Positions 5,324 through 39,350 of a stretch of DNA of 39,350 nucleotides are shown piece by piece (position 1 is the stretch's first letter; every line of letters starts with the position of its first letter). Origin of the DNA: Syntrophomonadaceae bacterium (lineage in GTDB: Bacteria > Bacillota > Syntrophomonadia > Syntrophomonadales > Syntrophothermaceae). Position numbers and translations under genes: made by a program. The stretch lies in contig JAAYAC010000015.1 in the NCBI GenBank assembly GCA_012719535.1, positions 1 through 39,350 of the forward strand. The letters run 5' to 3'. Under the pieces are notes generated by a model. The model saw nothing but the letters and a program-made list of their open reading frames with translations, was not told the DNA's origin and ran no database searches.

Positions 5324-6427
5324 ATGCCGGACAAGAAAGTTATTGTAGCTATGAGCGGCGGGGTAGACAGTTCGGTGGCCGCCTTTCTGCTCCAACAAGA
5401 AGGCTACGAAGTAATAGGAATTACCATGCAGATCTGGCCCCGGCCGGAAGATGATACCAAAGCGTGCTGCAGCCTGTCTGCCGTCGATGACGCGCGGCGG
5501 GTGGCCTGGAGCCTGGGCATACCTCATTATGTACTCAATTTTCGGGACGAGTTCAGGGCTAAGGTTATAGACTACTTTTGTAAAGAGTACCTCGAAGGCC
5601 GAACCCCCAACCCGTGCATTGCCTGCAACAGGTATATCAAGTTTGAATCCCTGTTGCAGAAAGCCCTGGCCTACGGGGCGGAATATATAGCTACCGGCCA
5701 TTACGCTCGCATAGAACGCGATAAGACTGATGGCCAATTCAAGCTCCTGACTGCACGCGACAGGACTAAGGATCAAACCTATTTCCTATATAACATGAAC
5801 CAATACCAGCTTCAGCACACCTTATTCCCACTGGGCAAATACCTGAAACAGGACGTCCGCAAAATAGCCAAGGAAGCCGGCCTGCCAGTGGCGGAAAAGC
5901 CTGAAAGTCAGGAAATATGCTTTGTCTCCTCAGGGAGGTATAGCCAGTTCGTGGAAGAACACCACGGGGGGGCGAAGCTGACGGGCTGCTTCCGCGGTTC
6001 CCACGGAGAGTACCTCGGACCCCATAAAGGAATTCACCACTATACTATAGGCCAGCGTAAGGGTTTAGGTCTAGCTCTCGGGTACCCGGTCTATGTCACC
6101 CGGATTGATGCAGAAACCAACACTGTTTGGGTAGGGCAAAAGGAGGAATTGTTCCAGAGTGCCCTGATTGCCGTTGATGTCAACTATGTGTCCGGTTTTC
6201 CGCCCGATGGCCCCGTCAGGGTGACGGGCAAGATAAGGTATTCAGCCCCTCGGGTGGACGCCGTGGCCACCCCATTGGGACAGGATAAGCTGAGGGTGGA
6301 CTTTCTTGTGCCCCAGAGGGCCATAACCCCTGGGCAGGCCGTGGTTTTGTACGATGGAGATGCTGTGGTCGGCGGGGGGACCATTGACGCAATAGCTGAC
6401 TGGCAAAAGGAAAAGAAGAAGTGTTGA
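5324..6427 (+). CDS. mnmA: tRNA-specific 2-thiouridylase MnmA
   Basis: MnmA adenylates C2 of the wobble uridine of Lys/Glu/Gln tRNAs and replaces the oxygen with sulfur relayed from a cysteine desulfurase. The PP-loop SGGVDSS lies at residues 11-17; Cys98/Cys101 (NPCIACN) and Cys199 (SQEICFV) are the catalytic and partner cysteines; GHYARI and KDQTYFLY are further family motifs. ATG 5324 is preferred to an upstream in-frame start at 5273: AAAGGA (5311-5316) precedes it and the protein then begins [13 protein letters not shown]. It follows the scaffold gene by 90 bases, a common Firmicutes desulfurase-scaffold-mnmA order. Its TGA stop overlaps the -35 box of the next promoter. A short fragment of this gene recurs near 36.5 kb. 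Confidence 0.96.
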
Positions 6428-6453
6428 CAGGGGAGCTAGCCGATTTATATAAT
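6424..6453 (+). promoter_or_regulatory. Promoter of SAM riboswitch 1 / cysK
   Basis: TTGACA (6424-6429) and TATAAT (6448-6453), spacer 18, form a consensus housekeeping promoter. The -35 box overlaps the mnmA stop codon. An ATTCCGAT element follows at 6466-6473, the same distance from the -10 as in the promoter at 36561. Confidence 0.85.
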
Positions 6454-6507
6454 GGTAACATCATTATTCCGATGTATTTTAGTGTAGTTAAAACTGAATA
6501 ATGGATT

Positions 6508-6636
6508 CTCATCAAGAGTGGCGGAGGGACTGGCCCGATGAAGCCCGGCAACCGGCGGTTTGCACGGTGCTAACTCCTGCGGAGCAATTCCGGAAGATGA
6601 GGTTGGCTTGCCTCTTCGCTCGGAAGAGGTTTTTTT
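6508..6636 (+). promoter_or_regulatory. SAM-I (S-box) riboswitch 1 with terminator, upstream of cysK
   Basis: The aptamer runs 6508-6601, closed by P1 (CTCATC 6508-6513 with GATGAG 6596-6601). It contains the conserved AGAGTGGCGGAGGGACTGG, GATGAAGCCCGGCAACC and CGGTGCTAACTCC segments. The expression platform is a terminator, CCTCTTC/GAAGAGG (6611-6629) followed by T7. GAGG 6599-6602 can instead pair with CCTC 6611-6614, giving the usual antiterminator choice. SAM binding should stop transcription before cysK. Confidence 0.95.
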
Positions 6637-6699
6637 GTGGAAAGAAAGTATTGGACAGTTGGTTGTTTTGTCAAAACTTTTGGGGAGGTTTAAGGGATA

Positions 6700-7629
6700 G
6701 TGGCGAGGATTGCTGACAGCTTAACCGACTTGATTGGCAGGACGCCTTTGTTAAGATTGCAGCGGGTTGCTGCCGACATAGAAGCTGAAGTGGTGGTAAA
6801 GCTGGAGTTCTTTAACCCGGCGGGAAGCATAAAGGACCGGATTGGTTTTAGCATGATCAAGGATGCGGAAGATAAAGGTTTGATTTCGAAGGATACGGTC
6901 ATTATTGAACCTACCAGTGGTAACACCGGCATCGCCCTTGCTTTTGTTTGTGCGGCCCGGGGATACCGCCTGATACTTACTATGCCAGACACCATGAGCA
7001 TCGAGCGACGTAACCTGTTGAAAGCCTATGGCGCGGAACTGGTGCTGACCCCGGGCTTGGAAGGGATGAGAGGGGCTGTCGAGAAGGCAGAACAACTGGC
7101 GAAGGAGATTCCCAACGCGTTCATTCCCCAACAGTTCAAGAATCCTGCCAATCCCGCCGTACATCGGGCTACAACCGCTGAGGAAATATGGGAGGATACC
7201 GACGGCAAGGTTGACATTGTTGTAGGCGGAGTCGGTACGGGCGGTACCATCACCGGAATCGGTGAGGTTATTAAGAAGCGGAAGCCCGGCTTCCAAGTAG
7301 TGGCAGTTGAACCGTTTGATTCCCCGGTACTGTCGGGAGGGCAACCGGGTCCCCACCAGCTACAGGGCATTGGTGCCGGGTTTGTTCCAGATGTATTGAA
7401 TCTCCGGTTAGTTGACGAGATTTTCAAGGTAAGAAATGAGGAGGCCTTCGCGACCGCTCGCCGTCTTACCCGGGAAGAAGGGATTCTAGCGGGGATTTCT
7501 TCCGGAGCCGCGGTTTTTGCCGCCCTGGAGGTGGCTAAGAGGCCGGAAAACAAAGGTAAGCTGATTGTAGCTATATTGCCGGATACAGGTGAACGGTACT
7601 TGAGTACCGCGCTATTTCAAGAGCCTTAG
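6700..7629 (+). CDS. cysK: Cysteine synthase A (O-acetylserine sulfhydrylase), copy 1
   Basis: This PLP enzyme makes L-cysteine from O-acetylserine and sulfide. PLP attaches at Lys45 in [11 protein letters not shown]; the substrate loop is [12 protein letters not shown]; the PLP-phosphate loop is [14 protein letters not shown]. It is 309 residues, the normal CysK length. GTG 6700 is set by GGGGAGG (6682-6688). SAM riboswitch 1 with its own promoter lies upstream, so cysteine synthesis here is tied to SAM level. A second cysK at 14186 encodes a protein differing at about 43 positions (my count), so roughly 86% identical, but without an S-box. O-acetylserine supply (cysE) is not in the window. 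Confidence 0.96.
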
Positions 7630-9404: not shown

Positions 9405-9944
9405 ATGGGGATGTACTCCAAGAAGGTAGATAAGCTTGACAAGCCGATTGAAGTGGTGAAAGAACGCGCCGAGGCGCTATATCGTAAAGGAGACTACCTG
9501 TGTTCACAAGCGGTGTTTACCGTAGTCAACGACTACCTTGGCAGGCCGGTGCCGCCCGAGGCGGTGCGGATGGCGTCAGGGTTTCCGGTAGGAATGGGTA
9601 CGGCCGGCTGTGCCTGCGGGGCGCTCTCCGGCGGTGTTATGGCACTCGGCCTCAAATTCGGGCGTACTCAGCCGAAGGCGGAAACCGGACATGTTCGAGT
9701 GGCCAAGCAATTGCATGACGAGTTTAAAGAAAAGTATCGCAGTGCCTGCTGCCGGGTATTGACCAAGAAGCACGAGTTTGGAAGCCCGGAACACATCATC
9801 GCGCAGTGTACTTCCATCACCGGTGCGGTGGCGGAAATGGTCATGAAAAGAATGATTGCTTCGGGCAAGCTGAATAGTCAACATAACATCGTGAAAAGGC
9901 TGTCAGGTCATCCTTTAGAAAGAGGAGTAAGCTTAAGAAAGTAA
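9405..9944 (+). CDS. C_GCAxxG_C_C family putative redox protein
   Basis: This belongs to the small Cys-rich C_GCAxxG_C_C family, named for its motif; members are thought to be redox-active or metal-binding, with no firmly established reaction. Visible here are YLCSQAVF, GTAGCACGALSGGVMALG, then SACCRVLTKK and a late Cys in HIIAQCTSIT, giving the expected Cys order. The start is uncertain: ATG 9405 or 9411 put the protein at about 180 residues, the family size. GTG 9384 and GTG 9390 are alternatives, and a frame reaching back to 9279 would add an atypical N-terminus. It lies between metY and the second S-box, which suggests but does not prove a sulfur-redox role. Confidence 0.8.
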   Translation: MGMYSKKVDKLDKPIEVVKERAEALYRKGDYLCSQAVFTVVNDYLGRPVPPEAVRMASGFPVGMGTAGCACGALSGGVMALGLKFGRTQPKAETGHVRVAKQLHDEFKEKYRSACCRVLTKKHEFGSPEHIIAQCTSITGAVAEMVMKRMIASGKLNSQHNIVKRLSGHPLERGVSLRK

Positions 9945-9965
9945 CGGCAGAATACAAAAAAGGTG

Positions 9966-9994
9966 TTGACACTACAGGAATATGAGACTATTCT
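9966..9994 (+). promoter_or_regulatory. Promoter of SAM riboswitch 2
   Basis: TTGACA (9966-9971) and TATTCT (9989-9994), spacer 17. The spacing and the position of the downstream dyad match the promoter of riboswitch 3 exactly. Confidence 0.75.
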
Positions 9995-10002
9995 GCTCCT
10001 AA

Positions 10003-10023
10003 TTCCTATCATGTTGATAGAAA
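10003..10023 (+). promoter_or_regulatory. Putative Rrf2-type operator at the riboswitch 2 promoter
   Basis: TTCCTATC-atgtt-GATAGAAA is an 8-5-8 inverted repeat with one mismatch. It begins about 9 bases after the -10 box, at or just after the expected transcription start. It has the same CCTANY-N5-RNTAGR geometry as the perfect dyad in the rrf2 promoter. Confidence 0.6.
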
Positions 10024-10040
10024 TAGTAATATAAAGGATT

Positions 10041-10169
10041 CTCATCCAGAGTGGCGGAGGGACTGGTCCGATGAAGCCCGGCAACCGGCGAAACGCACGG
10101 TGCTAACTCCTGCGGAGTGATTCCGAAAGATGAGGTTGCTGGTACCTCTTCGCTCAGAAGAGGTTTTTT
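10041..10169 (+). promoter_or_regulatory. SAM-I (S-box) riboswitch 2 with terminator
   Basis: P1 is CTCATC (10041-10046) with GATGAG (10129-10134); the S-box core segments are all present. The terminator is CCTCTTC (10145-10151)/GAAGAGG (10157-10163) plus T6. It differs from riboswitch 4 by only two bases within aptamer plus terminator stem: GGTCCG here for GGCCCG, and GCTCAG for GCTCGG. It now precedes a dead metX/metW remnant and then metI-metC, which it probably controls. Confidence 0.93.
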
Positions 10170-10200
10170 AGTATGGAGAAGAGCAGAGGTGAATTGGTGA

Positions 10201-10464
10201 GTGAGTGATGTTTTAAGCGTAGTTACCGAAAGAGCGACAAAACAACAGGACGGCCCTGAGTCTCCACGGTCCGTAGGTTGGACCAGGTCGCGGCGCGTAC
10301 GGCTTGCCGATAAGTAAAATCCCCTGCCCCTGGACTGCGGGACCCGTGCGAACAGCGTGCGGGTGGAATACGGAGTGGCGCTGGTGGACGGTGAGGTTGT
10401 ACCCTTGGACGAAGAGTACTCCGGCCGCGCCGAAGAGGTCCTGTTTATGGTATCTCGTTCATGA
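10201..10464 (+). pseudogene. metX-metW remnant with a 1.56-kb internal deletion
   Basis: Positions 10201-10342 match the first 47 codons of metX at 36803, with five substitutions by my count. Positions 10340-10464 match the last ~41 codons of metW (38498-38622), with three substitutions plus a different stop triplet. The junction falls in GGA, present at both deletion ends of the intact unit (36942-36944 and 38498-38500), so this looks like a microhomology deletion. Codon 39 (CAA in the intact gene) is TAA here (10315-10317), which kills the frame independently. The upstream riboswitch and ribosome-site region are preserved. It cannot encode an acetyltransferase or a methyltransferase. Confidence 0.93.
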
Positions 10465-10498
10465 TCATAAGAAATATGATTCATAAGGAGTGAAGTAG

Positions 10499-11638
10499 AT
10501 GAAACTGGCAACTCAATTGGTTCAGGTGGGAGTCGGCCGGGATAGGGAAACCGGTGCAATAAGCATGCCGATTTACCAAACCGCAACGTTCCGCCATCCG
10601 GGCCTGGGTCAGAGTACAGGTTATGACTACAGCCGTTCGGGGAACCCGACCAGGCAGGCGTTGGAAGAGAGTATGTGTAGCCTGGAGGGAGGCAAGCGCG
10701 GGCTGGCCTTTGCCTCCGGGATGGCTGCCGTCGCTGCCGTCATGCAGCTGTTCCGGCCAGGGGACCATCTTCTGGTTTGCGATGACACATATGGCGGCAC
10801 CTATCGCCTTTTTGCCACCCTGGGCGCTGCAAACGGCCTCAAATTTTCTCTTACTGACCTCACGGATTTGGACGCCCTGACTGGTAATATTACCCCTACG
10901 ACCAGGGCTATTTTTGTAGAAACCCCTACTAACCCTCTCATGAAGATAATTGACCTGGAGGCAATCATAGGTATTGCCAAACGGTACGGAATTCTGGTTA
11001 TTGTCGACAATACGTTTTTCACCTCTTACTTGCAGCGTCCCCTGGAGATGGGCGCTGACCTGGTCGTTTACAGTGCAACCAAATACATTGGCGGCCATAA
11101 CGACGTAGTAGCTGGCCTGGTGGTCTGTGGAAGTGAGGAACTGGGCGAAAAACTGGCCTTCATCCAGAATGTGGCCGGGGCAGTTCCGGGCCCACTGGAT
11201 TGCTGGCTGCTCCTGCGGGGGTTAAAAACCCTGGCGGCCCGGTTGGAATGGGCGCAGGCTTCGGCACTTCACCTGGCCCGGTTCCTGGACCAGCATCCGG
11301 GGGTGAAAAAAGTCTATTTTCCTGGTTTACCCGGCCACCCGGGACATGAGCTCTGCAAGAAGCAGGCCCGGGGATTCGGGGCCATGCTTTCTTTTGAAGT
11401 AAAATCAAAAGAGATGGTTGCCCAGGTGCTGGAGAAACTGAAGATCATCTCTTTTGCGGAGAGCCTGGGGGGGGTGGAATCCCTGATCACCTACCCCGAA
11501 ACCCAGACCCATGCGGATGTCCCGACGGAGGTGCGGAGGCGTCTGGGAATAAACGAGTGTCTGCTGAGGCTTTCGGTGGGGCTTGAGGATGCCTGCGATT
11601 TGGAGGCCGACCTGAGCCAGGCCCTGCGACCATGGTAG
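10499..11638 (+). CDS. metI: Cystathionine gamma-synthase/O-acetylhomoserine thiolyase (MetI type)
   Basis: This Cys/Met-metabolism PLP enzyme joins O-acetylhomoserine to cysteine to form cystathionine, and may also use sulfide directly. The PLP lysine is Lys195 in YSATKYIGGHND. YDYSRSGNPTRQALEE and the C-terminal SFAESLGGVESLITYP and QTHADVP resemble B. subtilis MetI more than MetB of proteobacteria. It is 379 residues. ATG 10499 follows AAGGAG (10485-10490). The next gene, metC, starts 16 bases after its stop, reproducing the S-box metI-metC operon of Bacillus. The only S-box upstream is riboswitch 2, separated by the metX/metW remnant, so SAM control probably persists by read-through. Confidence 0.88.
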   Translation: MKLATQLVQVGVGRDRETGAISMPIYQTATFRHPGLGQSTGYDYSRSGNPTRQALEESMCSLEGGKRGLAFASGMAAVAAVMQLFRPGDHLLVCDDTYGGTYRLFATLGAANGLKFSLTDLTDLDALTGNITPTTRAIFVETPTNPLMKIIDLEAIIGIAKRYGILVIVDNTFFTSYLQRPLEMGADLVVYSATKYIGGHNDVVAGLVVCGSEELGEKLAFIQNVAGAVPGPLDCWLLLRGLKTLAARLEWAQASALHLARFLDQHPGVKKVYFPGLPGHPGHELCKKQARGFGAMLSFEVKSKEMVAQVLEKLKIISFAESLGGVESLITYPETQTHADVPTEVRRRLGINECLLRLSVGLEDACDLEADLSQALRPW

Positions 11639-11654: not shown

Positions 11655-12809
11655 TTGGGGAAGGGAACCAAGCTTATTCATTCCGGTCATGAAGTTGACG
11701 AAGCTACCGGGGCGGTCAGCGCCCCTATTTATCAGAGCGTAATCTTTGCCCAACCTGACGTAGATACCGTTGGTAAGTGGGAATATACCAGAGCGGGGAA
11801 TCCCACCCGCGCTGTTCTGGAAGAGACCATTGCTGAACTGGAAGGAGGGAAGTACGGGTTCGCTTTCGGTTCCGGAATGGCGGCCATTGCCGCCGCCTTT
11901 TTCATATTCTCTGCCGGCGACCACATACTCGTGGCCCAGGATATCTATGGGGGAACCTTCCGTTTCGTTCACCGCCTCTTGCCGCGTTTCGGGTTCAAGG
12001 TTGAATTCGTCGACACTTCTGATATAAACAACATCAAGAACGCCATCAGGCCGGAGACCCGGGCTTTGTTTCTGGAGACACCTTCCAACCCCCTGATGAA
12101 GATTACTGATCTCCGCGCGGCTGCGAACCTGGCCCGGGAACACAATATTGTCACCATTGCCGATAACACATTGATGACTCCTTACCTGCAGCGGCCACTC
12201 GAATTGGGTATCGACATTGTGGTGCACAGCGCCACGAAGTACCTGGGAGGGCACAGCGATTGCCTGGCTGGTCTGGTGGTAACCGGGAAGGAGCGCTTGG
12301 CGAAGGAAATCCGCTTTATTCAGAATTCTATCGGGGCTGTCCTGGCTCCCCATGACTGCTGGTTGATTTTGCGAGGAATCAAAACACTGAAGGTGCGGAT
12401 GGAACAGCAGCAGCAAACTGCCGTTCTGCTGGCGGAGTGGCTCTCCGGTCAACCGGAAGTAGTGGAAGTCTTCTACCCTGGCTTACCCGGACACCCGGGG
12501 AGGGAGCTTCATTTTTCTCAAGCTGAAGGAGCGGGCGGAGTCCTGTCTTTCCGACTGCAAAACCAAGAGCAGGCCCGGCGGTTAATCAATAGCCTGCACT
12601 TGCCGGTAATTGCATCCAGCCTGGGAGCCGTGGAGAGCATCGTCTCCCTGCCAGCAACTATGTCCCACGCCGCCATCCCCGAAGAAACCCGCCGCAAATT
12701 AGGGCTGACCCGTGAACTGGTCCGCCTTTCGGTGGGCCTCGAGGATTTCGAGGACCTGCAGGCCGATTTGACCCAGGCCCTTGAAGTAGCAAGGCTTTCC
12801 CAAGACTGA
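11655..12809 (+). CDS. metC: Cystathionine beta-lyase (MetC type)
   Basis: This enzyme is predicted to split cystathionine into homocysteine, pyruvate and ammonia, completing transsulfuration from cysteine. The PLP lysine is Lys195 in HSATKYLGGHSD. KLIHSGHEVDEATGAVSAP at the N-terminus and SLGAVESIVSLPATMSHAAIP near the C-terminus resemble B. subtilis MetC. It is 384 residues. The start is TTG 11655, after AAGGGGGAG (11641-11649). It forms a tight pair with metI. Within this fold family, beta-lyase versus gamma-lyase or gamma-synthase activity is hard to separate by eye, so the assignment leans on the metI-metC context. Confidence 0.85.
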   Translation: MGKGTKLIHSGHEVDEATGAVSAPIYQSVIFAQPDVDTVGKWEYTRAGNPTRAVLEETIAELEGGKYGFAFGSGMAAIAAAFFIFSAGDHILVAQDIYGGTFRFVHRLLPRFGFKVEFVDTSDINNIKNAIRPETRALFLETPSNPLMKITDLRAAANLAREHNIVTIADNTLMTPYLQRPLELGIDIVVHSATKYLGGHSDCLAGLVVTGKERLAKEIRFIQNSIGAVLAPHDCWLILRGIKTLKVRMEQQQQTAVLLAEWLSGQPEVVEVFYPGLPGHPGRELHFSQAEGAGGVLSFRLQNQEQARRLINSLHLPVIASSLGAVESIVSLPATMSHAAIPEETRRKLGLTRELVRLSVGLEDFEDLQADLTQALEVARLSQD

Positions 12810-14185: not shown

Positions 14186-15115
14186 ATGGCCAAAATAGCT
14201 AATAATCTTACTGATCTGATTGGGAGGACTCCTCTGCTGAGATTGCAGCGGGTGGCGGCCGGGTTGGGGGCGGACGTGGTGGTTAAGCTGGAATCTTTTA
14301 ATCCCGCTGGAAGTGTAAAAGACCGGATTGGCTACAGCATGATCAAGGATGCAGAAGAGAAAGGGTTAATTTCAAAGGATACCGTCATTATTGAACCTAC
14401 CAGTGGTAACACTGGAATCGCTCTGGCTTTCGTCGCGGCTGCCCGTGGGTACCGCTTGATTCTTACTATGCCGGATACTATGAGCATTGAGCGCCGCAAC
14501 CTGCTGAAGGCCTATGGGGCGGAACTGGTACTGACCCCGGGGGCCGAAGGGATGAAGGGCGCCGTAGCCAGAGCGGAAGAACTGGCGGCGGAAATACCTA
14601 ACTCCTTTGTTCCCCAGCAGTTTAAGAACCCGGCCAACCCCGCAATTCATCGGGTTACCACTGCGGAAGAGATATGGGAGGATACTGACGGTAAAGTTGA
14701 TATTGTGGTAGGTGGGGTCGGTACCGGTGGCACTATTACCGGTATCAGTGAAGTGATAAAAAGGCGGAAACCGAATTTTAGAACGGTAGCAGTGGAACCA
14801 TTTGATTCCCCGGTTCTGTCGGGAGGAAAGCCCGGCCCGCACAAGATTCAGGGGATTGGTGCCGGGTTTGTCCCGGATGTACTGAATCTCCAGGTGATTG
14901 ATGAAATATTTAAGGTAAAAAATGAAGAGGCGATAGCAACCGCCCGTCGTCTCGCCCGGGAAGAGGGGCTGCTGGTGGGTATTTCTTCCGGAGCGGCTGC
15001 CTTCGCTGCCCTACAAGTAGCCAGGAGACCGGAAAACAAGGGGAAACTGGTTGTAGCTATACTGCCGGATACCGGTGAAAGATACTTGAGTACCGAGTTA
15101 TTTCAAGAGCCGTAA
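14186..15115 (+). CDS. cysK: Cysteine synthase A, copy 2
   Basis: A full-length 309-residue CysK with PLP Lys45 in [11 protein letters not shown], the [12 protein letters not shown] substrate loop and [13 protein letters not shown]. It differs from copy 1 at about 43 positions by eye, scattered and mostly conservative, with all active-site motifs intact, so both copies are probably functional. ATG 14186 follows TAGGAGGA. It has no S-box; it lies downstream of the YezD-family gene and no strong promoter is evident in the gap. This suggests one cysK responds to SAM and the other to a different signal. Copy 1 has Cys84 where this copy has Ala. Confidence 0.95.
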
Positions 15116-16609: not shown

Positions 16610-19009
16610 ATGCAACGGGTTACTATGAAAGTAAAGGGAATGAGTTGCGCGGCGTGCGCTGCCCGCATTGAGAAGGTATTGAGCCGAGTGCCCGGGGTTA
16701 GCCAGGCCCAGGTCAACTTGGCCCTGGAACAGGCATCGGTGGATTTCAACCCCGGGGAGGTACAGGTTTCCGACCTGGTCGGACGGATAGAAAAGTTGGG
16801 ATACTCGGTACCTTCGGAAAAAGCTGAACTTAAGATCGAGGGCATGAGCTGTGCCGCCTGTGCGGCCCGGGTGGAAAAGGGCTTGAGTAAGTTGCCCGGA
16901 GTGGAAAAGGTGAACGTCAATCTGGCCACCGAAATAGCTACCGTAGAATACCAGCCGGCCCAGTTGGGCATCGAGGACCTGGTCGGGGCGGTGACCCGGG
17001 TTGGATACGGTGCTCGCCCGCTTTCCTCCACGCGGCCGGATACCGGGGAAGAGGATGAGCCGGGGGAACTGCGGCAAAGAAAGAGATTACTGGTATTTTC
17101 CGCGGTGTTATCTTTTCCTTTTATCATAGTGATGTTCGGCCATCTATTTGGTATGGCCGTTCCCGGATGGCTGACCTCGTTTACTACCCAACTGCTGCTG
17201 GCCACTCCCATACAGTTTATAGCCGGGTTTCCTTTTTACCGGGGAGCATACACTGCCCTGCGCAACGGTAGCGCCAATATGGACGTGCTGGTTGTCTTGG
17301 GGACTAGCGCCGCTTACCTGTACAGCGTGGGGGCGGCGTACTTTACCCGACACCCTCACCTGTATTTTGAGGTCAGCGCCCTTTTAATTACCTTAATATT
17401 GCTGGGCAAGTACCTGGAATCCCTTGCCAAGGGCAGAACCTCTGAGGCCATTCGGAAGCTGATTGGCTTACAGCCCAAAACCGCTCGGGTCATCCGTGGC
17501 GGAGAGGAGCTGGAGGTTCCGGTCACCGAAGTTGCGGTGGGAGACACGGTGATAGTACGTCCCGGCGAGCGAATTCCGGTGGACGGAAAGGTTGTGGAGG
17601 GGTACTCCGCCGTGGATGAATCGATGCTGACCGGGGAAAGTGTACCCGTGGACAAGCAAACCGGGGATTCGGTATCCGGAGCGACGGTCAACAAATTTGG
17701 GGTTCTTAAGGTGAAAGCCACCCGGGTAGGGCGTGATACTGTACTGGCCCAGATTATCAGAGTGGTCGAGGAGGCTCAGGGATCGAAGGCGCCTATTCAG
17801 AGGCTGGCTGATGTGGTGGCAGGCTACTTTGTCCCGGTGGTGGTGGCGATAGCGGCCGCAACTTTTGCCGTCTGGTACTGGGGTATCGATGCCGGCAATT
17901 TCTCCCGGGCGTTGCTCAACGCCACCGCAGTATTGGTTATTGCCTGCCCATGCGCCATGGGCTTGGCCACCCCCACTTCTATTATGGTAGGCACCGGTCG
18001 GGGGGCGGAAAACGGAATTTTGATTCGCGGAGGAGAGCACCTGGAAAGGACTCACCGGATAAATACGGTGGTGTTGGATAAGACGGGTACCATTACTACG
18101 GGCGAATTGCAGGTTGCAGATATGATAACCGCCGAACGGTATGCGAACCAGAAAAACCAATTATTGAACTGGGCGGCGCAGGTTGAGAAACAATCGGAAC
18201 ACCCGGTGGCCCAGGCCATTGTCCGGGGAGCCCTGGAACGCGTGCCCGGGTTGACCGTGGCAGAACCCGCGGAATTTACCGCTGTTCCCGGCAAAGGGGT
18301 GAGAGCCGTCCTGGAGGGAAAGAAGATTCTAATTGGTACCCGCAGGTTTTTGCAGGAGGAAGGCGTGGACCTGAAACCCCTTCTGCCAATGGTAGATGAA
18401 ATGGAAGCAGAAGGAAAGACCACTGTGCTCATGGCGGTAGACCAGGTGGTTGCGGCCGCCATCGCAGTTGCGGACTCTGTGAAGGAACACTCGGCTGAAG
18501 CCATACGGGAACTAAGAAACCTCGGCATCGATGTATGGATGATAACCGGAGACAACCGGCGAACTGCAGCGGCTATCGCTGAGCAGGTAGGGATTGATAA
18601 CGTGCTGGCGGAAGTGCTGCCGGAGGATAAAGCGCGGGAGGTACAAAGGCTGCGCGATGAAGGACGTATTGTCGCCATGGTGGGGGATGGGATTAACGAT
18701 GCCCCGGCTCTGGCCATGGCCGATGTGGGCATAGCTATGGGCACGGGCACTGATGTAGCCATGGAAGCGGCTGATATTACACTCATGCGAGGAGACCTGC
18801 GGGCCATAGTTACGGCCATTCGTCTCAGTAAAGCCACGATGCGCAACATCAAACAGAACCTGTTTTGGGCGTTTGTCTACAACACGGTGGGGATTCCGCT
18901 AGCGGCGGCGGGACTTCTGAGCCCGGTGTTAGCGGGAGGAGCCATGGCCTTAAGTTCAGTTTCGGTGGTCAGTAACGCCTTGAGGCTTAAGCGGGTAAGG
19001 TTGACCTGA
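16610..19009 (+). CDS. copA: Copper-translocating P1B-type ATPase with two HMA domains
   Basis: An ATP-driven Cu(I) exporter in the cytoplasmic membrane. Two N-terminal heavy-metal-associated domains each carry GMSCAAC (Cys13/16 and Cys81/84). Membrane helices follow, then the TGES actuator motif, the membrane CPC motif ([10 protein letters not shown], near residues 445-447), the phosphorylation site DKTGTIT (Asp near 490), SEHPVA in the nucleotide domain and [10 protein letters not shown]. It is 799 residues, full length. The motif set is the P1B-1 copper pattern. ATG 16610 follows GATCGAGGA. A near-identical copy of its last ~150 bases recurs at 38810. No csoR or copZ was seen beside it. 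Confidence 0.96.
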
Positions 19010-31473: not shown

Positions 31474-31490
31474 TTAGTCACATACAGATA

Positions 31491-31620
31491 CTCATCCAGA
31501 GCGTCACAGGGACTGGCCCTGTGAAGCCCGGCAACCGGCTTGATGCACGGTGCTAACTCCTGCGGAATGATTTCGAAAGATGAGGTTGCCAATGCCTCTT
31601 TGCCGGAAGGGGCTTTTATT
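31491..31620 (+). promoter_or_regulatory. SAM-I (S-box) riboswitch 3 with terminator
   Basis: P1 is CTCATC (31491-31496) with GATGAG (31579-31584). The core has AGCGTCACAGGGACTGG, GTGAAGCCCGGCAACC and GGTGCTAACTCC; P2 varies in a compensatory way (CAGGG/CCCTG). The terminator GCCTCTT (31594-31600)/AAGGGGC (31607-31613) has one G-T pair and is followed by TTTTATTTT, weaker than the other three. It now precedes a metX remnant and thiI. Confidence 0.92.
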
Positions 31621-31705
31621 TTCGAAAAATCCAGGAGGGGGGAGGGGCATGTACAAAAGATGGGGCCGGACTCGTCGTCACGGAACTGGAAAGGTGTACA
31701 ATCAG

Positions 31706-31841
31706 GCGGATACCACTTGACTTTGGCCGGTTTTCGGCCCCGTCGAAATAGCCGGCGAAACATACGGTAGTCTAAGTGAAACCCGAGATAATGTGGTCTT
31801 GATTCTGCGCGCATTAACCGGGGACGCACACGCTGCGGGAA
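31706..31841 (+). pseudogene. metX N-terminal remnant (distinct paralog)
   Basis: From about 31721 the frame reads [20 protein letters not shown] and then [17 protein letters not shown]. This aligns with the homoserine O-acetyltransferase N-terminus and with residues 52-86 of intact MetX at 36803. A TGA at 31718-31720 interrupts it, and homology stops near 31841, before the catalytic parts. Its DNA differs widely from the intact metX, so it descends from a different copy. Its position right after an S-box is the expected place for metX. Confidence 0.8.
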
Positions 31842-31932
31842 GTACATGCGAGTATTTGTTTACGGATTGTACTAAGAGTCGCTTCCCGGGAAAAGACTTA
31901 CGGGTTAGAAGGGAAAAAGGCGGGGTTAGGAC

Positions 31933-36464: not shown

Positions 36465-36530
36465 CCGGCCGGGGGATGATAACAAAGCCTGCTGCAGCCT
36501 GTGGCCGTAGATGAAGCCTGACGGGTGGCA
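36465..36530 (+). pseudogene. Degraded internal fragment of mnmA
   Basis: CCGGCCGG, GATGATA, CAAAGC, TGCTGCAGCCTGT, GATGA and CGGGTGGC occur in the same order as in mnmA (about 5440-5504), with roughly nine mismatches and a one-base loss. The corresponding protein segment is [21 protein letters not shown] single-base deletion and a stop (TGA at 36519) destroy the frame. In mnmA an S-box unit follows the gene, as it does here. Confidence 0.8.
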
Positions 36531-36560
36531 AGGTTAATCGATTCGACGAGGAAGAAATGA

Positions 36561-36590
36561 TTGACAGGTGACAAAGTCGGTGCGTATAAT
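36561..36590 (+). promoter_or_regulatory. Promoter of SAM riboswitch 4 / metX
   Basis: TTGACA (36561-36566) and TATAAT (36585-36590), spacer 18, identical in sequence and spacing to the riboswitch 1 promoter. The flanking GAAGAAATGATTGACAGG resembles the mnmA end GAAGAAGTGTTGACAGG. AATTCCCAT follows at 36602-36610. Confidence 0.88.
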
Positions 36591-36641
36591 ATATACATTA
36601 TAATTCCCATATATTTAATATAGTTAAAGTAAATAACTTAT

Positions 36642-36771
36642 CTCATCCAGAGTGGCGGAGGGACTGGCCCGATGAAGCCCGGCAACCGGCGAAACGCACG
36701 GTGCTAACTCCTGCGGAGTGATTCCGAAAGATGAGGTTGCTGGTACCTCTTCGCTCGGAAGAGGTTTTTTT
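36642..36771 (+). promoter_or_regulatory. SAM-I (S-box) riboswitch 4 with terminator, upstream of metX
   Basis: P1 is CTCATC (36642-36647) with GATGAG (36730-36735), and the full S-box core is present. The terminator CCTCTTC/GAAGAGG (36746-36764) is followed by T7. It controls the intact metX-metW operon and is nearly identical to riboswitch 2. Confidence 0.96.
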
Positions 36772-36802
36772 AGTATGGAGAAGAGCAGAGGTGAATTGGT
36801 GA

Positions 36803-38020
36803 GTGAGTGATGTTTTAAGCGTAGTTACCGAAAGAGCGACAAAACAACAGGACGGCCCTGAGTCTCCACGGTCCGTAGGTTGGACCAGGTCTCGGCGCGT
36901 GCGGCTAGCCGATAAGCAAAATCCCTTGCCCCTGGACTGCGGGAGGACGATTGCGCCGGTCGACGTGGAGTACGAACTCTATGGAAAGCTGAACGAAGAG
37001 CGTGACAACGCCATCCTTATTGTTCATGCTCTTTCCGGGGATGCCCATGTGGCTGGTTGGGCTGCTGATGCCGAAGAATTAGGGCGTCCCTGGCTGAAAA
37101 CTCGTCCTGGCTGGTGGGATACCATGGTCGGTCCGGGGAAGGCTTTCGATACGGAGAAGTACTGTGTTATCTGTTCCAACATACTGGGGGGCTGTTATGG
37201 AACCACCGGGCCCGCTTCCATTGATCCGGAAACCAATCGTCCATATGGCCTGCGTTTTCCGGTAGTCACCGTGGGGGACTGGGTCAGGCTGCAGGAGAGG
37301 TTGGTCAGTTATCTGGGAATTCAACGCCTGCTTGCGGTGGCAGGAGGGTCGCTGGGAGGTCAACAGGCCCTGGAGTGGGCGTTAGCTTTTCCTGATAGGG
37401 TTGATTCAGTTATTATCTGCGCTGCGGCGGCCCGTCTCAGCGACCAGGGGCTTGCCTTCAATGCGGTGGGGCGGCACGCTATTATGACAGATCCCAATTA
37501 CCGGCAAGGAGATTATTATGATGGCAGCACCCCCGACCAGGGGGTTGCGATTGCACGCATGTTAGCCCACATCACCTACCTGTCGGAGGTGGCCATGAAC
37601 CGAAAATTCGGCCGCCGGTTCTGCAACGGGGAGGGACCGGGGTTTCACCTGGGCGTCGATTTCGAGGTTGAGGGATATCTCCGCCATCAGGGGAAAGCCT
37701 TCGCCGAAAGGTTCGATGCCAACAGTTACTTGTATATAACGCGCGCCATGGACTACTATGACGCCGCAGCCTGGGGAGGCGGGGATATTGACCAAGCCTG
37801 CCAGAGGATTAAGAGCAGGCTGCTCTTGGTTTCGTTTTCTTCTGACTGGCTTTATAGGCCGGAGCAGACGAAGGAACTGGCCCAGGCCTTATACCGCAAC
37901 CGGAAGCTGGCGAGCTATGTTAACATTGATTCATCTTACGGTCACGACGCTTTTCTCCTGGAAACCGACAAGTTATCCTATTTGGTGCGATGCTTCCTGG
38001 AAGGAGGAGAGGAACAGTGA
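36803..38020 (+). CDS. metX: Homoserine O-acetyltransferase MetX
   Basis: MetX acetylates homoserine with acetyl-CoA, the first committed methionine step, feeding MetY and MetI here. The alpha/beta-hydrolase triad is visible: nucleophile Ser183 in AGGSLGGQQALEW, Asp in SSDWLYRP and His in YGHDAFLLE. NILGGCYGTTGP is a further family motif. At 405 residues it is somewhat long because of an N-terminal extension of about 40 residues before the usual PLPLDCGRTIAPV start of the fold. GTG 36803 with GAGGTG upstream is supported by the copy at 10201, which has the same start. Succinyl-CoA use cannot be excluded from sequence. It is under S-box control and overlaps metW by 4 bases. Confidence 0.95.
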   Translation: MSDVLSVVTERATKQQDGPESPRSVGWTRSRRVRLADKQNPLPLDCGRTIAPVDVEYELYGKLNEERDNAILIVHALSGDAHVAGWAADAEELGRPWLKTRPGWWDTMVGPGKAFDTEKYCVICSNILGGCYGTTGPASIDPETNRPYGLRFPVVTVGDWVRLQERLVSYLGIQRLLAVAGGSLGGQQALEWALAFPDRVDSVIICAAAARLSDQGLAFNAVGRHAIMTDPNYRQGDYYDGSTPDQGVAIARMLAHITYLSEVAMNRKFGRRFCNGEGPGFHLGVDFEVEGYLRHQGKAFAERFDANSYLYITRAMDYYDAAAWGGGDIDQACQRIKSRLLLVSFSSDWLYRPEQTKELAQALYRNRKLASYVNIDSSYGHDAFLLETDKLSYLVRCFLEGGEEQ

Positions 38021-38622
38021 GGGAGAATATAAGAAACCGTTGGGACCATGAAATCATCTATGAGCTTATCCCTGAAGGAGCGTCCGTATTGGACCTGGGG
38101 TGCGGCTATGGGGAACTGTTGGCCCGGCTCATAAGGAATAAAGAAGTTCAGGGGATAGGAATTGAAAACGATTTTGAACGCGTGGCCGTATCCATCTCCA
38201 AAGGGGTTCCTGTCCTGCAGGCAGACCTGGACGAAGGCCTCCCCGGTCTGCCCGACCACTTCTTCGATTATGTTATCCTGGAGAAGACTCTGCAGGCGGT
38301 AAAGAAACCGCTTTTCGTACTGGAGGAGATGCTCCGGGTGGGAGGTGCGGGGGTGATCAGCTTCCCTAATTTTGGACACTGGAGGGTCATTTCTTCACTG
38401 TCTTCCACGGGCAGGATGCCGGTGACAGCGGAACTTCCCTACCAATGGTACGATACCCCGAACATTCATCTTTTCACCGCCCGAGATTTTCTCGATTGGA
38501 CCCGTGCGAACAGCGTGCGGGTGGAATACGGAGTGGCGCTGGCGGACGGTGAGGTTGTACCCTTTGACGAAGAGTACTCCGACCGCGCCGAAGAGGTCCT
38601 GTTTATGGTATCTCGTTCATAA
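38017..38622 (+). CDS. metW: Methionine biosynthesis protein MetW
   Basis: A 201-residue class I methyltransferase-like protein that accompanies metX in many bacteria; its exact reaction is unsettled. The SAM-binding motif I is VLDLGCGYGELL, followed by GIEND; DYVILEKTLQAVKKPLFVLEEMLRVG and SFPNFGHWRVI are MetW-specific. GTG 38017 overlaps the metX TGA (GTGA), with AAGGAGGAGA upstream, so the two are translationally coupled. A copy of its last ~41 codons survives in the remnant at 10340-10464. Confidence 0.93.
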   Translation: MRENIRNRWDHEIIYELIPEGASVLDLGCGYGELLARLIRNKEVQGIGIENDFERVAVSISKGVPVLQADLDEGLPGLPDHFFDYVILEKTLQAVKKPLFVLEEMLRVGGAGVISFPNFGHWRVISSLSSTGRMPVTAELPYQWYDTPNIHLFTARDFLDWTRANSVRVEYGVALADGEVVPFDEEYSDRAEEVLFMVSRS

Positions 38623-38809
38623 GTGACAAGAATCTGATTTGTGAGAGGTAAAGGAACACTGGAGGCCGGGATGAATTGTGACAATGCATCCGTTCTTATT
38701 TGGTGCGGCCGGCATAGGCATTGGCTATACGGTGGAAGTCCCGAGCGGCGAAGATAGCAGCAGTCGTTAGCTTAAGACAAGGGTATCCGTGGTGGTGGTG
38801 AAGCCGGGT

Positions 38810-38958
38810 ACCTGTTTTGGGCGTTCCTCTACAACACGGTGGGGATTCCGCTAGCGGCGGGACTTCTGAGCCCGGTGCTGGCGGGAGGAGCCATGGCCTT
38901 AAGTTCAGTTTCGGTGGTCAGTAACGCCCTGAGGCTTAAGCGGGCAAGGTTGACCTGA
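38810..38958 (+). pseudogene. 3'-terminal fragment of a copA gene
   Basis: The 149 bases match the end of copA (18858-19009) with about six substitutions and a 3-base deletion in a GCG repeat, including the stop codon. Most differences are silent (for example TTA/CTG and TTG/CTG leucine codons), as if the source had been a functional second copA. There is no ATPase coding upstream of 38810. It represents only the last membrane segment of CopA. Confidence 0.92.
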
Positions 38959-38996: not shown

Positions 38997-39107
38997 CGAA
39001 CATGTCGATTTAAACTTGGCCGAGAGAATCAAATCCTTTATCCGGGATTCTCTACAAGACTGCCGGTACCAGCATAAAGAAGCGAAAACATCGTTCCCCT
39101 TGCTTCC

Positions 39108-39332
39108 TTAATTACCTATCTCACGCTTGAGATCTAATACCTTATCTAAAGGAAGACCGGTTATTTCCGCCACGTCCTCGGGCGAGAACCCTTTTCTTAA
39201 AGCCGCCTTAGCTGTTTCTAACTTTCCCTCCATCTTTCCCTCCATCTTTCCCTCTATCTTTCCTTCGATCCTTCCTTCGATCCTTCCTTCCTTTCTCCCT
39301 TCTTCTCTTATCCACTGTTCGATTTGGGTCAT
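39108..39332 (-). CDS. Small charged-repeat protein resembling the Rpn/PD-(D/E)XK transposase C-terminal tail
   Basis: A 74-residue protein: MTQIEQWIREEGRKEGR, then seven or so EG[RK][IM]-type tetrads predicted to form one long charged helix, then AKAALRKGFSPEDVAEITGL and PLDKVLDLKREI. This arrangement is the C-terminal tail of Rpn-family (PD-(D/E)XK transposase-like) proteins. Here it stands without the nuclease domain. ATG 39332 has GGAGGTGG upstream at good spacing, so it may be expressed as is; the frame also reaches TTG 39347 at the window edge. The 12-base coding repeats (CTTTCCCTCCAT) are prone to slippage. Function unknown. Confidence 0.6.
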   Translation of the reverse strand: MTQIEQWIREEGRKEGRIEGRIEGKIEGKMEGKMEGKLETAKAALRKGFSPEDVAEITGLPLDKVLDLKREIGN

Positions 39333-39350
39333 CGCTACCACCTCCAATAA

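Follow-up and report, generated by a model that had tools for sequence, protein, structure and literature searches.

The window analysed here, a 39,350-nucleotide stretch from a Syntrophomonadaceae bacterium, holds near 10 kb a metI-metC operon whose leader has the makings of a SAM-I (S-box) riboswitch: an aptamer above the Rfam cut-off for RF00162 (44.4 bits), an intrinsic terminator as expression platform and methionine genes downstream (metI-metC from 10499). Between terminator and metI lies a stretch of dead metX and metW sequence, called the scar below, and metI has, judging from the sequence, a ribosome site of its own at 10485-10498 (Table 1). An intact S-box-metX-metW unit is found 26.6 kb downstream of the scar, preceded by a cysteine desulfurase-like gene; its aptamer likewise exceeds the Rfam cut-off, and its MetX and MetW both score above their NCBIfam cut-offs. 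Promoter, aptamer and terminator are present at both loci, and the gene content of the two is complementary, full close matches to metX-metW occurring only at 36.6 kb and to metI (with metC behind it) only at 10 kb.

Table 1. Features of the scar locus, the intact unit and related copies in the window
Feature	Position	Strand	Basis or remarks
Promoter-like site 5' of the scar	9966-9994	+	TTGACA-17-TATTCT, 10/12 matches
SAM riboswitch (S box) aptamer, metI-metC operon	10039-10136	+	Rfam RF00162, 81.7 bits; 98% identity with the 36640 aptamer
Intrinsic terminator of the leader	10144-10169	+	Stem 10144-10164 plus T run; stem same as 36745-36765
metX relic, first 47 codons	10201-10342	+	Self-match and alignment; TAA at 10315-10317
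GGA joint	10340-10342	+	Self-match and alignment; 1,556 bp of metX-metW missing, frame kept
metW relic, last 41 codons and stop	10340-10464	+	Self-match
metW-metI spacer	10465-10498	+	Similar to the metW-metI spacer of G233's intact operon, z 5.0
metI-like gene (cystathionine gamma-synthase/lyase family)	10499-11638	+	81% identity with its counterpart in the G233 operon
metC-like gene (cystathionine beta-lyase family)	11655-12809	+	80% identical in G233
Third S-box	31489-31586	+	Rfam; promoter similar to the one at the scar
Older metX relic, MetX residues 27-88	31661-31849	+	E 2.5e-7; 59-65% identity over residues 50-85, E about 1e-13
mnmA relic, 66 bp	36465-36529	+	Self-match; copy of 5440-5505
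Promoter, intact unit	36561-36590	+	TTGACA-18-TATAAT; region similar to the promoter of the cysK S-box, z 8.2
SAM riboswitch aptamer, intact unit	36640-36737	+	Rfam, 87.3 bits
Intact metX	36803-38020	+	NF001209, 481.6 bits
Intact metW	37990-38622	+	TIGR02081, 214.7 bits
copA tail	38810-38958	+	94% copy of copA's final 49 codons (18858-19009); collinear with metX-metW

When the window was compared with itself by BLASTN, 10040-10342 matched 36641-36944 (97.4% identity, seven mismatches and one gap, E 5e-145) and 10340-10481 matched the end of metW at 38498-38639 (93.7%, E 7e-55), the relic portion 10340-10464 corresponding to 38498-38622; neither match is due to chance. A base-by-base alignment of 10040-10464 (425 bases), with 11 substitutions and one missing T, agrees with this and bears out the initial annotation, which had described a near-copy of 36642-36944 that jumps to the end of metW, with the right coordinates. 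The joint and the nonsense change that it had reported are likewise found: GGA stands at the joint and at both deletion ends of the intact unit (36942-36944 and 38498-38500), 36945-38500 being absent from the scar, and codon 39 of the relic is TAA where intact metX has CAA (36917-36919). With a head and a tail that match the intact paralogue and a middle that is gone, the scar has the form of an internal-deletion pseudogene. A microhomology of 3 bp is common by chance and is compatible with slippage or end-joining, but it is proof of neither. A detail additional to the initial annotation is that the reading frame is retained across the joint, so that from the GTG at 10201 it runs for 38 residues to the TAA, on through metX codons 40-47 and the in-frame metW tail, and ends at a TGA (10462-10464); if the TAA were absent, it would specify MetX residues 1-47 fused to the final codons of MetW.

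Could the joint be a misassembly through the 300 bp that the two loci share? The genome is a draft in 203 contigs, and repeats break contigs here, but the joint links metX to metW rather than one locus to the other, and the two copies are set apart by their 11 substitutions and by unique, differing flanks, with a longest shared run of only 126 bp; an assembly artefact therefore appears exceedingly improbable.

The five changes within the 47 metX codons comprise four synonymous changes and the nonsense change, whereas all three coding changes of the metW portion alter the residue (A/V, F/L, D/G), and the stop codon differs as well (TAA/TGA). With metX and metW from six genomes as outgroups for the ancestral bases, and among the sites that gave a clear answer, the likely older base was found in the scar at 10305, 10324 and 10385 and in the intact copy at 10299 and 10407; both copies have therefore diverged, and the changes in the intact gene are mostly silent, as expected of a working gene. 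The duplication had been called recent, which accords with the 2.6% substitutions overall but holds only in a relative sense, since the 47 metX codons contain four synonymous changes.

At its 5' end the copy breaks off exactly at the 5' edge of the aptamer. The sequences upstream of the two aptamers are unrelated (z 1.1), whereas the aptamers themselves and what lies downstream are nearly identical. The scar's promoter region (9939-10031) is similar instead to the one before the 31.5-kb S-box (z 10.4), and for the intact unit the similarity is to the promoter region of the cysK S-box, at 6.5 kb (z 8.2). The window's four S-boxes all have the same orientation, and the promoter mosaic suggests recombination from one S-box to another; unequal crossing-over between S-boxes could, we infer, yield it. 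Between the S-box at 31489 and thiI lies a further, older metX relic, absent from the initial annotation's finding, with one in-frame TGA and frameshifts. Three S-boxes within 39 kb have thus each once stood before metX, of which one copy is intact and two are dead, and it is a tentative thought, which we hold to be possible rather than probable, that S-box leaders are hubs of recombination whose promoters were shuffled at the aptamer edge.

The surroundings of the intact unit hold further copied material. Upstream of its promoter lies a relic of mnmA, the gene that precedes the cysK S-box, and after this relic 36551-36640 is a decayed copy of the promoter region (6415-6506) of the cysK S-box leader, which marks the 36.6-kb leader as an older duplicate of the cysK leader region. 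The copA tail behind intact metW has the order and orientation in which copA stands behind metI-metC. The copied stretch may have reached copA and later lost everything from metI through most of copA, or the copA tail may have arisen independently; traces of metI 3' of intact metW were not significant (P 0.13; spacer P 0.015). A dispersed repeat of about 110 bp at 38701-38812 has at least five further copies in the genome (76-83% identity; contigs 138, 57, 145, 6 and 60). It was considered as a carrier of the copA tail and rejected, the other five copies having no adjoining copA-like sequence. The window itself ends in a repeat, 39097-39350 being 98% identical to 13095-13348 of contig 37 and including a 12-bp tandem repeat (39222-39291). 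Two cysK paralogues, at 6700-7629 and 14186-15115, lie 7.5 kb apart and are 79% identical in DNA.

Which of the two loci was the first home of metX-metW? A MetI scan of 84,980 genomes yielded two near relatives, L056 (80%) and L057 (78%); the relatives searched include none of the same genus, the nearest MetI proteins being 78-81% identical. L056 has S-box-metI-metC with 63 bases from aptamer to metI, and L057 has metI without an S-box. Neither has metX ahead of metI, and MetX was undetectable anywhere in their genomes by a search that finds it in the positive controls G233 and G281. G233, from the same phylum, carries the unsplit order S-box-metX-metW-metI-metC followed by cysK, with metX and metW intact, and the window at 10-15 kb, where cysK also follows, would have this order were its metX-metW whole. 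This full operon was seen in a single genome; identity to it is 79-81% for metX, metI, metC and cysK and 69% for metW. The scar's metW-metI spacer is similar to that of G233, and comparison with L056 and L057 gave no resemblance. In a MetI tree the window, G233, L056 and L057 form one clade (support 100/100), the branching inside which is not resolved. True MetW was found in six other genomes, G233 among them, in a sample of 399 from the phylum, and in no further genome of the class among 63 searched, because of which metX-metW were perhaps acquired laterally. In G281, from the genus of G233, metI-metC are gone behind metX-metW, with the opening codons of metI and its tail left (L176, 9328-9415), and the genome has no other full metI, a mirror image of the window's scar; inside the riboswitch leader of the same locus, at 5441-7350, the S-box aptamer is separated from metX by a group II intron (RF02001, 65.2 bits) that holds a 422-aa frame.

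Because of the full operon in G233 and the likeness of the spacers, the place before metI would most likely be the original home of metX-metW, and 36641-38622 the newer location. The initial annotation had inferred a unit copied next to metI-metC and then collapsed; the copied S-box-metX-metW unit, the GGA-to-GGA deletion and the nonsense change all stand, but the direction of copying is not supported and probably wrong, in view of the intact metX-metW between S-box and metI-metC in G233 and of the spacer. Its reading, with metX-metW native to 36.6 kb and the new copy before metI collapsing, fits the same sequence facts and the absence of metX-metW in front of metI in L056 and L057. Against it, however, stand not only G233 and the spacer but also the surroundings of the intact unit (the cysteine desulfurase-like gene, the copA tail and the mnmA relic), which are debris of other copies, and the finding that no relative examined has metX-metW at that place, so that we regard it as unlikely. 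The unit may also have been inserted ahead of metI twice, as L056 and L057 have no metX in the genome and the MetI tree leaves the four-member clade unresolved. The scar is, in our estimation, probably the gutted old S-box-metX-metW-metI-metC operon, from which metX-metW were copied out and the home copy was lost afterwards.

A one-step origin, in which copying switched template and so passed over 1.56 kb, a full second copy never existing at the scar, would account for the single joint with 3 bp of homology. A somewhat clustered set of five changes in the 36 bp beside the joint (P 0.05, post hoc, and not relied on) would also suit it, but the full operon of G233 makes a full-length copy before metI the simpler ancestor, and the four synonymous metX changes suit coding constraint over time in at least one copy; such a chimaera is very unlikely. 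Does the short form serve a purpose of its own, with the 38-codon frame and the metX ribosome site providing the metI-metC transcript with a spacer or leader peptide? No change has touched the ribosome site or the first 30 codons (a run of 126 identical bases), and S-box and terminator are retained. The short form is, however, absent from 60 relatives as well as from L056, L057 and G233, so that a conserved functional RNA or ORF, which the initial annotation had named as a finding that would speak against it, was rejected; metI has its own ribosome site; and selection on the unchanged 5' part was rejected as an explanation, since its substitution-free run is no longer than is ordinary for 11 changes (P 0.18). 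A functional short form is thus highly improbable.

The history proposed for the gutted operon builds on what is established, namely the two copies, the deletion, the promoter mosaic and the intact operon in G233, and adds a crossing-over and an order of the two losses, both of which we infer. It would begin with one S-box-metX-metW-metI-metC operon at the scar locus, from which a stretch from the S-box to past metW, perhaps to copA, would have been copied behind a second, cysK-type S-box leader, the S-boxes probably serving as the matching sequence, for example in unequal crossing-over between direct repeats. The copy at 36.6 kb would have retained metX-metW and lost its downstream part; the home operon would afterwards have lost 1.56 kb of metX-metW at GGA and gained the stop codon.

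Today the pathway would be divided between two SAM-controlled units, S-box-metX-metW and S-box-scar-metI-metC. The metI-metC transcript is predicted to run from its own promoter through an almost unchanged S-box and terminator and the dead metX-metW stretch into metI, the scar being a mere spacer of about 300-330 nt in the leader between terminator and metI, and metX-metW would be transcribed separately under a near-identical S-box. SAM should still turn off the metI-metC transcript, and both riboswitches presumably work. The 38-codon frame may be translated; nothing points to its importance.

What is the significance of such a locus? The way in which a single riboswitch comes to govern several units is as a rule reconstructed from end states, whereas here the steps would be readable: copying from the riboswitch onward, promoter shuffling, a scar left by deletion, and a riboswitch that still precedes each half. 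It would be a rare catch of a regulated operon dividing into two, each part retaining its SAM-sensing switch. If the hub idea were true, riboswitch regulons could expand and operons divide through crossing-over from one riboswitch to another, and the idea of the riboswitch as the matching sequence in operon splitting becomes testable in genomes with many near-identical leaders.

Like the S-box (SAM-I) leaders of Bacillota methionine genes (RF00162), the scar locus has an aptamer and an intrinsic terminator before met genes, but unlike typical leaders of this family it has about 330 nt of dead metX-metW between terminator and first gene. It shares with bacterial internal-deletion pseudogenes the head and tail of lost genes in their locus, together with a nonsense change, and differs from the ordinary case in that the scar spans two genes and the frame is kept across the joint. 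In 2006 Price et al. reportedly described an operon life-cycle that includes operon splitting by duplication and loss. The present case is real and instructive operon splitting, not a new system: one operon would have given two transcription units that share out its genes, but here, compared with operon splitting generally, an intermediate scar, a breakpoint at the riboswitch and remnants of the lost copy can still be read. In work on lysine riboswitches, operon disintegration alone was held insufficient to give multiple riboswitch copies without a duplication mechanism, and for a second lysW with its riboswitch gene duplication was inferred and the mechanism of riboswitch multiplication left open (PMC5584792). 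As with that second lysW, a riboswitch has been multiplied here together with a gene under its control, the difference being that in the window both the breakpoints and the remnants are visible.
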